A DNA stretch of 64,000 nucleotides. It comes from Sipunculus nudus. Taxonomy: Eukaryota; Annelida; Sipuncula; Golfingiida; Sipunculidae. Shown piece after piece: positions 9,161 to 23,175 of the stretch. Each line of letters opens with the position of its first letter. The stretch's first letter is position 1. Both the position numbers and the translations under genes were made by a program. The stretch is from contig CM049306.1 of NCBI GenBank assembly GCA_026874595.1, positions 108,459,142 to 108,523,141 on the forward strand, in the 5' to 3' direction. The notes beneath the pieces are model-generated. The model was not told where the DNA came from, did no database searches, and was given only the letters and a program-made list of their open reading frames with translations.

Positions 9161-9485
9161 TACAGTTACAAATGATGTATACAGTTTCTTTTATCAGGAA
9201 TGCCTTATAATGAGAAAAAAATTAATTGTCTCAAGCAGACCGAACACACAGGAATTTGTTCAGGCACACGCTGCGCCAGATATTCCTTCCTGAAGGTGTG
9301 TCTCCATGTGCGCGTATATTCAGTCTGCATGTATTGCGTCAACGGCAAACGAATTCCTGTATATTTGATCGGATCATTAAATTTATCATATCTTATTCAA
9401 TTTGTTATAGTATAAAATTTAATGAAACCGTGTGATTAAAATATTTACTTACACAGTGCAGCCTATTCAAAATTTACTTCCACAT

Positions 9486-9491
9486 TTTATT
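9486..9491 (-). terminator. Poly(A) signal of gene B
   Basis: AATAAA on the minus strand, about 145 nt downstream of the gene B stop codon, followed by TGTGG and a GT-containing stretch. A second AATAAA overlaps the stop codon itself (GAAAATAAA) and is less likely to be used. Confidence 0.6.
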
Positions 9492-9634
9492 CATTAGGTA
9501 ACATAATAACAATGTAAAATTATAAAAAAATTGCATATCAAATTTATCTATTATATATTATGTATAAAACATATTAATACCCTGATGCTTTGCAGTCGGT
9601 AAAATTACCTAAATTTGAATATTTCTTTTAATTT

Positions 9635-21800: not shown

Positions 21801-23114
21801 AAGCCAAATGCGAATTACCCATAAGCACCATGTGTCATGGTGACACATGAAGGATTAATTATCGGCTAAATCAGTCCAAAAGTTGTTTTGAATTCATACC
21901 AGACGCCATAAAGTGTCAATTTTCATGTTATTTTGAACCTTTTTGATGCTATGCTTAATTTTGAACTTTTCATTCATTTTCTCCTGATTCTGTAACATGA
22001 AAAAAAAATTTTAAGAGGTACAATATTTTAGGCACCTAGTAATAGTAAGTCATTTTGTACTAGAATAATATTAAACTACATGAAAATTTCTGATAAAAAG
22101 TCCTCGAATGTTTGTCCTGCTTCATGAAAATTGAAATTTAGATTATTTCTTGAATCAAAATTTAAAATTTTAGCTTAGGATAGATAGAAAATCTCATTAA
22201 GAGTTTATTCTCATAAACGCACACTTAAACATACACACACATATATATACCAACACATAAGCATATAAATATATATTCCTTGATAACAAATATGTTTATA
22301 TAAAAAGTATCAAATATACCCACGTATTGAATGTATGACTCTTCGGCTGTGTTATTCAGCATCCTGGCAAGACCGAGCGTGTCATACTTGATGGTAAAGG
22401 TCGCCTCACAAATACCTGGGGCGCACATCACGAATAACAGCAAACAGCCGACAATCCTGGAATAATTTTGTGATATTATATATGTAGTAATATCATGGGT
22501 CCAAATGCATGAATCTCCTCTCCCAAAAAGTCGCGACATTAATTGACCCCGGACACTTAGTTTTCGGGTCGGCTTTTTAAAAGTCAAGGGTTTAGGACTA
22601 GTTATAATCCATTGTCAGCCGCTGATCCATTGACAGTCGTGTTTTTATAATGTATATATTTGGATTGGCATCATGCGGTTTGTTATACGACATTAAAACT
22701 TTTAGCAGTTTAACTTTATGAAGCAATCATCCAAAAGGCACCCATATGTGCATTTAGATGTGCCATCTTTGATTAGACCACTACTAAAACAGCGATAGAT
22801 AATCAATTGTCATAGGAAAACGTCCTTAAATTCTATTATCTATTCTAATTCTATAGACCAAACGAAGAACTCTTCTTAAAAAAAGAATTACGAAAAAATC
22901 CTATAAGTAAATTTTGTGCCAGGTTTTCGTAACGAGATCGTTTTAGATTGAAGCCACATCAGTAATTAGTGTTGCTCATTCACCGGTACGAAAAAGTTGC
23001 AACAAGCGTATGCACACCGATCTGACACGGAGTTAAATGGAAACGTCATCAAAGATCTGCGAACCATTTATGTAAAACAAATTTGGCGAAGTTGTCCAAG
23101 ACTCACCTTGACAT
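9635..23114 (-). CDS. Gene B: candidate long-chain class-I helical cytokine (five exons)
   Basis: CDS is join(9635..9802, 10573..10779, 13841..13984, 22324..22456, 23107..23114) on the minus strand, 219 residues. Intron phases are 2, 0, 0, 0 and every junction keeps the frame. A signal peptide ([21 protein letters not shown]) should be cleaved after residue 21. The mature part has seven cysteines (48, 68, 72, 128, 132, 136, 145), including a CX3CX3C cluster in the B-C loop, and four N-glycosylation sequons (N37, N109, N189, N206). Four amphipathic helices can be drawn: A about 24-57, B about 88-115, C about 140-172, D about 182-215 with W199. Helix A ([11 protein letters not shown]...ESYIQY) recalls the CLCF1 segment around TYDLTRYLE and TYLNY; helix D (LNNLLTAW) recalls the L-x-x-L-x-x-W pattern of LIF/CNTF proteins. 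A tiny first exon, helix A in exon 2, helix D in the last exon and phase-0 later introns are the known IL-6/GH gene plan, although their first intron is normally phase 1. The gene model is well supported; the cytokine assignment is inference. Confidence 0.75.
9803..10572 (-). other. Gene B intron 4
   Basis: 770 bp, AT-rich, with no feature recognised apart from its splice sites. Confidence 0.6.
10573..10779 (-). CDS. Gene B exon 4 (helices B and C)
   Basis: 207 bp, 69 codons, phase 0 at both ends. Acceptor CTGATTGACAG|GATC; strong donor GTTGAT|GTGAGT. It encodes the rest of helix B ([18 protein letters not shown]), the cysteine cluster CDSHCPPNC, and helix C ([19 protein letters not shown]). 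Confidence 0.85.
10985..12180. repeat. Diverged interspersed repeat, several partial copies
   Basis: Within gene B intron 3. The segment with CCAAATTTCAGACCAATACC and CACCCAAAGCACATGTAC recurs at about 11173, 11446 and 11701 and more weakly to 12040, each followed by a GATGGACGCC-like stretch and a variable spacer. It looks like an old amplified element (family unknown to me). The overlapping minus ORFs (for example 11684-12067) are by-products. Confidence 0.6.
12240..13478 (+). repeat. Three tandem copies of a ~340-bp interspersed repeat, with terminal module
   Basis: Three diverged copies with period about 335-340 bp, recognisable by GATCAATATTCATGCAAAGA-like blocks near 12464, 12799 and 13139. 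Each carries the GGCGCCACC palindrome (full GGTGGCGCCACC in the last two). The last copy ends in CGGACGGACGGCC-rich sequence and the module AGAGTGATCGCTATAGCTCA / CTTTCAGTCAGCTGAGCTAA. A G-rich tract at 13217-13238 could form a quadruplex. Related copies on the opposite strand occur at about 19600-19830 and 37715-37800. Confidence 0.7.
13479..13840 (-). other. End of gene B intron 3 near exon 3
   Basis: AT-rich, with a pure (TA)n run at 13779-13808 lying 33 bp from the exon 3 donor. No gene. Confidence 0.7.
13841..13984 (-). CDS. Gene B exon 3 (A-B loop)
   Basis: 144 bp, 48 codons ([10 protein letters not shown]... to ...NIASLTK), phase 0 at both ends. The acceptor is TTATATTACAG|TGCC and the donor ACAAAG|GTAAAA. 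A second donor 9 nt downstream (AAG|GTAAAA) would add three in-frame codons (V K K). Only about 20 bp of original intron separate the acceptor from a MITE. Confidence 0.82.
14009..14783. mobile_element. PIF/Harbinger-like MITE, 775 bp
   Basis: Inverted termini: the left end begins AGGCCGGCATACACGTTGCG, and the right end read in reverse begins AGGCCAGCATACACGTTGCG. The similarity continues about 20 bp further into CGACTCAACTCAAC-type sequence. It is flanked by the 3-bp direct repeat TTA (14006-14008 and 14784-14786), the TWA target of PIF/Harbinger. Subterminal GTTGAGTTGAGTCG motifs repeat in both orientations. The short internal ORFs are not a transposase, so the element is non-autonomous. 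It sits in gene B intron 2. Confidence 0.8.
14821..14992. repeat. Compound (CT)n-(TA)n microsatellite
   Basis: About 115 bp of CT dinucleotides with rare interruptions, then about 57 bp of TA. Long CT runs on the plus strand read as GA on the gene B strand. Confidence 0.97.
14993..16430. other. Gene B intron 2 segment with an unassigned GC-richer patch
   Basis: From about 15590 to 16130 base composition rises and overlapping frames stay open on both strands (for example minus 15734-16009 and plus 15854-16136). I could not assemble a convincing exon or recognise a domain; a decayed transposon fragment is the simplest reading. Confidence 0.4.
16439..16444 (-). terminator. AATAAA downstream of the candidate alternative last exon
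   Basis: Minus-strand AATAAA, 29 nt after the TAA that closes the open frame at 16473. It is the main reason to take that frame seriously as a terminal exon. Confidence 0.4.
16473..16643 (-). CDS. Candidate alternative terminal exon inside gene B intron 2
   Basis: A GC-richer open stretch in an otherwise AT-rich intron encodes 56 residues ending [10 protein letters not shown], with a [10 protein letters not shown] motif and a basic middle. A possible acceptor ACCACAG|GGC at 16644/16643 is phase 0, so exon 2 of gene B (phase-0 donor) could splice to it and give a secreted protein of about 103 residues lacking helices B-D. The acceptor has a weak polypyrimidine tract; the alternative TTTCAG|ACC is phase 2. 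It might instead be the last exon of an unrelated gene. I recognise no family. Confidence 0.35.
   Translation of the reverse strand, partial: GRSTRGTSTQIERRPQSQQQCSSGASYLVECYCKKGKQVQPRYNRFANNESVNAPC
16700..18128. other. Gene B intron 2: AT-rich sequence, (TA)n tract and hairpin
   Basis: No gene seen. A (TA)n run with a short CACA interruption spans 17204-17320. Just beyond it is the perfect hairpin CCGTGC-TTC-GCACGG (17334-17348). Such a hairpin can mark a transposon end, but no matching partner was found. Confidence 0.6.
18137..18582. mobile_element. hAT-type MITE, 446 bp
   Basis: Termini CAGGGGCGTCAAT (left) and CATTGGCGTCAAT (right end reversed) are inverted repeats in the style of hAT elements. 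They are flanked by the exact 8-bp target duplication ACTGTATA (18129-18136 and 18583-18590). Subterminal G/C homopolymer tracts (GGGGGGGGGATGG and CATCCCCCCACC) are also inverted. No coding capacity. Confidence 0.8.
18591..19600. other. Gene B intron 2: no gene assigned; GC-richer patch and microsatellite
   Basis: Between about 18890 and 19140 the sequence is GC-richer with open frames on both strands, but no splice-consistent exon or domain is recognised. A (CT)n-(TA)n microsatellite lies at 19168-19269. Confidence 0.4.
19600..19830 (-). repeat. Minus-strand copy of the 13.3-kb repeat module
   Basis: Read on the minus strand it matches 13270-13470: GGACCTGCCTGGATATGAGG, then a CAGTTACAATTTG block, then AGAGTGATCGCTATACCTCA and GACTTTCAGTTAGCTAA. 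Substitutions throughout mark it as an old copy. Confidence 0.65.
19831..20681. other. Gene B intron 2: sequence upstream of a gag relic
   Basis: No exon of gene B. The part from about 20170 could include an LTR and leader of the element at 20778, but I found no paired second LTR or clear primer-binding site. Confidence 0.35.
20682..20750. repeat. (TA)n microsatellite
   Basis: Pure TA dinucleotides directly upstream of the gag relic. Confidence 0.97.
20778..21203 (+). pseudogene. Decayed retrotransposon gag-like fragment
   Basis: An ATG opens a frame (MGSKIKPDD...) with charged, coiled-coil-like sequence of the kind seen at the N-terminus of LTR-retrotransposon Gag proteins in invertebrates (helical KKDELK and [10 protein letters not shown] motifs, then a Glu-rich repeat region). 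It is broken by an in-frame stop near 20840, a frame change near 21050 and a further stop near 21090, so it cannot make a full protein. It lies antisense to gene B in intron 2. The family is not certain. Confidence 0.5.
21563..21697 (+). repeat. Three-copy 45-bp tandem repeat
   Basis: Units start at 21563, 21608 and 21652; each holds CAGGCNNGAGA and CTTGCCTGCAGTG ending TCTTAA, with several substitutions. Confidence 0.85.
21698..22323 (-). other. Gene B intron 2, donor-proximal part
   Basis: AT-rich with no further feature recognised. Confidence 0.6.
22324..22456 (-). CDS. Gene B exon 2 (signal peptide and helix A)
   Basis: 133 bp. The acceptor ATTATTCCAG|GATTG is phase 2; the donor CAATAC|GTGGGT is phase 0 and of moderate strength. 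It encodes the hydrophobic core of the signal peptide, [12 protein letters not shown], and most of helix A. Confidence 0.8.
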
Positions 23115-23175
23115 TTCTAGCTGAAAACCATTTTGCTCGAATCTTCCACTTTAGAAATATCTGCAAAATGCGTCT
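23107..23175 (-). CDS. Gene B exon 1 (5' UTR plus ATGTCAAG)
   Basis: From the inferred start at about 23175 to the near-perfect donor CAAG|GTGAGT at 23107/23106. Coding begins at ATG 23114-23112 and only 8 nt are coding (Met, Ser, two bases of Arg), phase 2. The 5' UTR of about 60 nt contains a four-codon uORF. Confidence 0.72.
23117..23131 (-). promoter_or_regulatory. Four-codon uORF in the gene B 5' UTR
   Basis: ATG GTT TTC AGC TAG (M-V-F-S-stop). Its start context (A at -3, G at +4) is better than that of the main ATG (G at -3, T at +4), and its stop lies only 2 nt upstream of the main ATG. Such an arrangement should strongly limit translation of the main frame. Confidence 0.6.

Follow-up and report, generated by a model that had tools for sequence, protein, structure and literature searches.

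The long-chain class I helical cytokines of vertebrates (IL-6, LIF, CNTF, G-CSF, EPO and growth hormone) are secreted proteins of about 200-240 amino acids (aa). Their five-exon genes show a tiny first exon and the intron phases 1-0-0-0; helix A ends close to the border of exons 2 and 3, exon 4 holds helices B and C, and exon 5 holds helix D. For G-CSF, five exons and four introns are given for carp, as in human and mouse, in the consulted part of the literature (PMC6389648). In this study, a stretch of 64,000 nucleotides (nt) of the 1.43 Gb genome of Sipunculus nudus was analysed (C1:108459142-108523141, in the following the window). Its minus strand carries a gene, here called gene A, that belongs to a previously unassigned family of small, fast-changing, apparently secreted proteins. 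In gene layout and helix pattern, this family resembles vertebrate immune messengers such as interleukin-6. We consider the chances slightly better than even that these genes form a lineage-expanded family of secreted ligands of a helical-cytokine-like type, closest in gene plan and helix layout to the long-chain class I cytokines.

In the accessible portion of a survey made by BLAST at a minimum of at least 30% identity, IL-6 is reported only in vertebrates and IL6R from Mollusca on (PMC13203501). IL-12 receptors are placed before the origin of molluscs in the excerpt of another study, with the ligand subunits p19 and p28 in mammals and birds and with earlier forms of other subunits allowed (PMC12162339). 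The insect Unpaired proteins (Upd1/2/3), ligands of Domeless, are invertebrate secreted ligands that feed JAK/STAT (PMC13203501, in extract), as the present family would be; they are likened here by description only. The oyster protein CgIFNLP, claimed in the consulted text to be an interferon-like antiviral cytokine of an invertebrate (PMC8218723), is also likened by description only, but it is of the interferon type. In shrimp, the C-type lectin IL-CTL and peroxiredoxin 4 were proposed as non-insect ligands of Domeless, a gp130-like receptor; as far as the available extracts go (PMC5645147, PMC9195186), these are proteins of other kinds and not small five-exon helical proteins. Among the listed titles and abstract starts of open-licence papers on invertebrate class I ligands, no report of the present family was found, and the literature search on the gene plan gave little.

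For gene A, five minus-strand exons had been proposed in an earlier note on the window, and this structure was borne out: GT-AG is found at all four junctions, and the exons join into a frame of 219 codons without an internal stop. The extent given for exon 5 was corrected, as its coding part ends at 9638 and is followed by the stop codon (9637-9635), the remainder to 9470 being 3′ untranslated region (UTR). The G+C content is 0.42-0.49 in exons 2-5 and 0.37 in the tested 19-nt piece of exon 1; in the four introns it is 0.30-0.39, which is below exons 2-5. The protein holds four N-glycosylation motifs. The parts of the gene are given below, with their basis in brackets where it applies.

23199..23206, minus strand: TATA box (TATAAATA), about 31 nt upstream of the previously proposed exon start 23175 (sequence)
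23107..23175, minus strand: exon 1, 5′ UTR and first codons, donor AAG/GTGAGT, recognisable in genes B and C
23107..23131, minus strand: segment homologous to the exon 1 coding part of genes B and C (ATG...G, 25 nt, phase 1), with TAG as codon 5 in gene A
23107..23114, minus strand: start codon of the earlier note and exon 1 coding part (ATGTCAAG, phase 2) (sequence)
22324..22456, minus strand: exon 2, signal-peptide-like segment and most of predicted helix A, final codon Tyr, invariant in 6 of 6 paralogs
13841..13984, minus strand: exon 3, last part of predicted helix A, then the long A-B loop (Cys48, Cys68, Cys72) (sequence, paralogs)
10573..10779, minus strand: exon 4, predicted helix B, short Cys-rich B-C loop (Cys128, 132, 136, 145) and predicted helix C (sequence, paralogs)
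9635..9802, minus strand: coding part of exon 5 and stop, C-D loop (M-T/V-G-x-x-P) and predicted helix D with NLLxAW (sequence, paralogs)
9470..9634, minus strand: 3′ UTR with the polyadenylation signal AATAAA at 9486-9491 (sequence alone)

Gene A is a real gene, because paralogs in this genome repeat its exons, their borders and the reading frame. A search of the genome with the gene A protein (E <= 10) returned 17 places. Twelve of them, at E <= 5.2e-6, are located at C1 108.36-108.61 Mb, four of these being gene A's own exons; four more, at E 0.35-4, all fall within 35 kb at C1 9.24-9.27 Mb, and one is found on C7 (E 2.7). The following copies were read from the two clusters.

Gene B, C1 ~108362742-108372552, plus strand: readable, 227 aa, protein 76% identical to gene A
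Gene C, C1 ~108597935-108608313, plus strand: readable, 216 aa, protein 55% identical to gene A
Gene D, C1 ~108544679-108542077, minus strand: readable, 208 aa without a located exon 1, 41% identical to gene A
Gene E, C1 near 108.556 Mb: decayed, exon 3 being interrupted by a stop and exon 4 truncated
Gene F, C1 ~9239567-9237110, minus strand: readable, 241 aa, 23% identical to gene A
Gene I, C1 ~9270226-9273040, plus strand: readable, 236 aa as first modelled without exon 1, 26% identical to gene A
Gene G, second cluster (C1 9.237-9.273 Mb): broken, with a stop in exon 3 and the frame lost in exons 4 and 5
Gene H, second cluster (C1 9.237-9.273 Mb): broken by a frameshift in exon 3
Pieces J, second cluster (C1 9.237-9.273 Mb): exon pieces

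Six models are thus readable, namely A (219 aa), B, C and D in cluster I and F and I in cluster II, the latter together with broken copies. Exons 2-5 of gene A recur in the same order and with the same borders and phase in B, C, D, F and I. The profile of A-D aligned to that of F and I over 157 columns (probability 95%, E 3.7e-8), the match beginning in helix A and extending into helix D, and both clusters are homologous parts of one family. A genome search with exon 4 of gene I (E <= 10; only the best candidates scored, 6 of 6) returned the four genes of cluster II, followed by A and B (E ~0.25). Like the Tyr at the end of exon 2, the residues Cys128, 132, 136 and 145 and the LL-x-A core of helix D are invariant in all six readable models. 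The Trp of the helix-D motif NLLxAW is present in five of the six, with Arg instead in gene D. Gene D lacks Cys48 and Cys68 alike, and the five remaining models have the two, a co-loss as would be expected for a disulfide pair.

Over exons 2-5, the ratio of non-synonymous to synonymous substitution rates (dN/dS) calculated by NG86 is 0.44 for A-C, 0.36 for B-C, 0.30 for A-D and 0.31 for F-I; YN00 gave 0.52 for A-C, 0.43 for B-C and 0.38 for F-I. Because of these NG86 values of 0.30-0.44, the proposed frame is evidently conserved as protein in the distant pairs. In the six models, the other five reading frames hold 6-20 stops each, the coding frame being stop-free by choice of model. Short exons with GT-AG ends are easily found in 14 kb, and the five exons could in principle have been assembled from open stretches by chance. 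This was rejected on account of the paralogs, which repeat exons, borders and frame at 41-76% and at 23-26% protein identity, and the dN/dS values stand against it as well; we give it practically no credence.

The plan of the gene, which had been described as a tiny first exon, a signal-peptide-like segment and helix A in exon 2 and later introns of phase 0, was found again in the family. An exception is intron 1, whose phase 2 had been noted as the one difference from the vertebrate plan: in all seven paralogs with exon 2 read (B, C, D, F, G, H and I), two bases of a split codon follow the acceptor, so that the intron is of phase 1 and the difference disappears. A similarity search located exon 1 in B, C, F, G and H. 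Its coding part is ATGGTTTTCAGCAAGAAATGTCAAG in gene B and ATGGTTGCCAACAAGAAAAGTCTAG in gene C (25 nt each) and ATGCACCCACAAG in gene F (13 nt), each followed by the donor GT in phase 1, and similar ATGs and donors are seen in G and H. For gene I, a similarity search found no exon 1; a 25-nt exon located 263 nt before exon 2 was chosen from five candidates of a pattern scan, two of which are nested, because it has a TATA box and lies close to exon 2. It counts for less, as the scan demanded phase 1. Exon 1 of gene D was not found, neither of two pattern candidates being accepted. Upstream of exon 1, TATA boxes are present as TATAAATA in B and C and as TATATAAGA in F, G and H, and one is found in I too. 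An N-terminal hydrophobic segment is seen in the paralog models, as judged by inspection only and with gene D lacking a located exon 1; this accords with secreted proteins that have a signal peptide and no further membrane span. Since intron 1 is of phase 1 in the paralogs and introns 2-4 are of phase 0 in all six models, the family plan is to be read as 1-0-0-0, and the arrangement 2-0-0-0 is peculiar to gene A.

Gene C has no counterpart of the ATG previously taken as the start of gene A (23114), and in gene B this ATG exists but is not in frame. The start used by the paralogs corresponds to 23131, from where the TAG at the fifth codon of gene A leaves an upstream reading frame of 4 codons. 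Next to 22453, at the start of exon 2, gene A shows a 4-nt deletion relative to gene B, by which the second ATG (23114) comes into frame. Despite this frame shift, a signal-peptide-like N terminus remains. The main frame begins 2 nt after the 4-codon upstream frame, and a lower translation should be expected.

Gene A differs from gene B in a patchwork. The two are 97% alike both upstream of the TATA box (654/673) and over the stretch running from that box through exon 1 (99/102), 89% in intron 1, 80% in exon 2 and again 97% in exon 4. The segments compared were 22324-23881 and 10573-10779 of the window with C1:108361991-108363578 and 108370440-108370646 of gene B. Gene conversion or promoter constraint would explain such a pattern. 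The dN/dS of the pair over exons 2-5 is 0.61 by NG86 and 0.86 by YN00; by exon (NG86, 44-69 codons each) it is 0.81 in exon 2, 2.8 in exon 3, 0.13 in exon 4 and 0.28 in exon 5, and YN00 gave 3.9 for exon 3 over 48 codons. With changes polarised by gene C and 23 ambiguous sites excluded, the branch of gene A carries 6 synonymous and 23 non-synonymous changes, that of gene B 12 and 19. Per 100 random changes, 22 synonymous, 74 non-synonymous and 4 stops are expected, and the gene A branch is close to that. Gene A may be relaxed, decaying or positively selected. It is possible, although we would not expect it, that within a real family gene A is relaxed or decaying and that its annotated start arose accidentally through two damaging changes, the TAG at codon 5 and the 4-nt deletion at the start of exon 2. 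The branch counts and the decayed sister copies E, G and H point in this direction; the 219 codons without a stop or frameshift, the kept N terminus and the kept promoter and splice sites do not, and the branch counts fit positive selection too. This reading is compatible with a family of cytokine-like ligands.

With regard to the protein, four helix-prone stretches were detected by a family-averaged scan at residues ~26-56, 94-124, 140-168 and 181-214. Support for the four amphipathic helices of the earlier note is modest, with shuffle p values of 0.024 and 0.015 for segments 1 and 3 and of 0.11 and 0.12 for segments 2 and 4. Between the helices, the A-B stretch is long, B-C short and Cys-rich and C-D medium, a spacing that suits an up-up-down-down bundle without proving it. 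Similar helical elements appear in both low-confidence AlphaFold2 models of gene A. With the vertebrate long-chain class I cytokines the family shares the size, the predicted secretion, the five exons, the phases 1-0-0-0 and the placement of the predicted helices relative to the exons, and with CNTF a Trp in helix D. The call of a class I cytokine is upheld as far as the gene plan, the secreted-protein layout and the helix-D Trp in the last exon (five of six models) are concerned, and for the fold and the class membership it stays a prediction.

Several results weigh against a cytokine-like family. The amphipathicity of helices B and D is non-significant, and the single-sequence AlphaFold2 models were uninformative, with a predicted local distance difference test score (pLDDT) of 38.3 for the full length and 38.2 for the mature protein and a predicted template modelling score of 0.24. 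As the earlier note had said, sequence similarity to cytokines is faint: no cytokine family of Pfam matched any of the six members (0/6, E <= 10), the family profile had 0 matches among PDB sequences at E <= 10, and no match at E <= 0.001 or at E <= 10 was obtained in a protein library whose coverage of relatives of this animal is uncertain. The hhalign scores for LIF (10.7) and CNTF (12.5) were both under the mean of 60 block shuffles (13.6 each), in a test of low power in which LIF did not find CNTF at E <= 1 either. The overall A-B ratios indicate little constraint on gene A. Finally, we know of no vertebrate class I cytokine with a four-cysteine B-C loop.

Some minor matches were also obtained in these searches. 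Gene A alone had no match in Pfam; three unrelated models, each in one of the six members (best E 0.02), were taken as chance, as was a Prospero homeobox chain matched by gene A among PDB sequences (E 0.38). In the best local match to CNTF, which is non-significant, the helix-D Trp motif of the family is aligned with LSQWTVRSIH. The border of exons 2 and 3 reads ...AFDEY/CKEITAQGEIPNPDF in gene I, and LIF has ...LFILYYTAQGEPFPN; intron 2 of LIF presumably falls within that YY, which is a lead only and no test.

The lack of a cytokine match in Pfam, PDB sequences and the protein library, the four invariant cysteines within one short loop and the uninformative fold models with a pLDDT of 38 would also suit a secreted, mostly helical, disulfide-bonded family of another kind (for example antimicrobial, reproductive or storage), resembling cytokines only in size and gene plan. 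We regard this as rather unlikely in view of the features common to the members read: the 1-0-0-0 phases, the tiny first exon, the helix-per-exon layout, the TATA promoter and the long-short-medium loops. Taken together, these correspond to the plan of five-exon class I cytokines. Compared with the vertebrate class I cytokines, the family differs in the Cys-rich B-C loop with its invariant cysteines, in having no detectable sequence or profile similarity and in that no receptor-binding motif was identified. It is quite doubtful that the genes are true homologs of the IL-6/LIF/CNTF-type cytokines and ligands of lophotrochozoan IL6R/gp130-like receptors. Here, an ancestral 1-0-0-0 five-exon gene would predate the protostome-deuterostome split and be hidden by very fast sequence change.

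The gene plan alone cannot separate class I from class II, because IFNL2/3 also possess a tiny 5′ exon with a phase-1 intron; in the consulted part of the same source, class II genes also show phase-0 introns (PMC2654155), with which introns 2-4 of the present family agree too. A class II-type helical cytokine, interferon- or IL-10-like, was thus considered, the more so as an interferon-like oyster protein (CgIFNLP, see above) is reported. We hold this to be improbable: none of the six members was matched by an interferon or IL-10 model of Pfam, and a tiny exon followed by four coding exons, the last of which holds helix D, agrees no worse with the class I plan.

We return to a cytokine-like family, most like long-chain class I, as the preferred explanation. 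The members have the profile of a ligand family, because they are small, apparently secreted, disulfide-capable, multi-helical, TATA-driven, clustered and fast-changing and have broken sister copies. Clusters with decayed copies (E, G and H) and fast exons are also seen in immune ligand families. The gene would be transcribed from its TATA promoter and the protein secreted after removal of the signal peptide. It would then form a four-helix bundle with the A-B and B-C loops pinned by disulfides and would cross-link gp130/domeless-type receptors on haemocytes or neighbouring cells, leading to JAK/STAT activation. A STAT gene is present in the genome: STAT_int (PF02865) was matched over its curated cut-off in two pieces 28 kb apart on C12 (C12:15238236-15266650), the only such locus seen, which is in line with an invertebrate. 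The first exon of this locus reads LQGDAMRQIQ...HFPIEVRH, and the first piece aligned to the solved chains of STAT-4, STAT-1 and STAT-3, with 18/42 residues in common with the STAT-4 chain 1bgf. A scan of the promoters of A, B, C and F for NF-kB, GAS, IRF and AP-1 sites revealed nothing common to all four but a short IRF-core match.

If the fold is confirmed, this family would become a candidate for the ligands that are missing for the JAK/STAT receptors of invertebrates. Found by gene plan and paralogy and not by BLAST to human genes, it would be a concrete ligand candidate. It would also have a bearing on how old the gene plan of class I cytokines is.

In the surroundings of gene A, no other gene was recognised by Pfam in ten of the longer open stretches of the window, where the cut-off was missed by each of three matches at E 0.046-0.078. 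In the window, the gathering score was not attained by any Rfam family. One of the weak matches is Tissue_fac (PF01108) to a stretch in intron 2 (15447-15797, minus strand; E 0.046, 14 bits vs a cut-off of 27), which is probably due to chance. About half of the window consists of tandem repeats (31,509 of 64,000 bases masked). Minisatellite arrays are located at 1-824, 4734-7432, 25332-32644, 44622-46797 and 48217-63988; they comprise a 59-mer (x46), two distinct arrays built from one 61-mer unit (x120 and x36), a 41-mer (x20) and a 40-mer super-array of ~15.8 kb with higher-order units of 120-240 bp. In addition, a unit of ~800 bp is repeated head to tail about four times at 32710-35695, with 86-90% identity.

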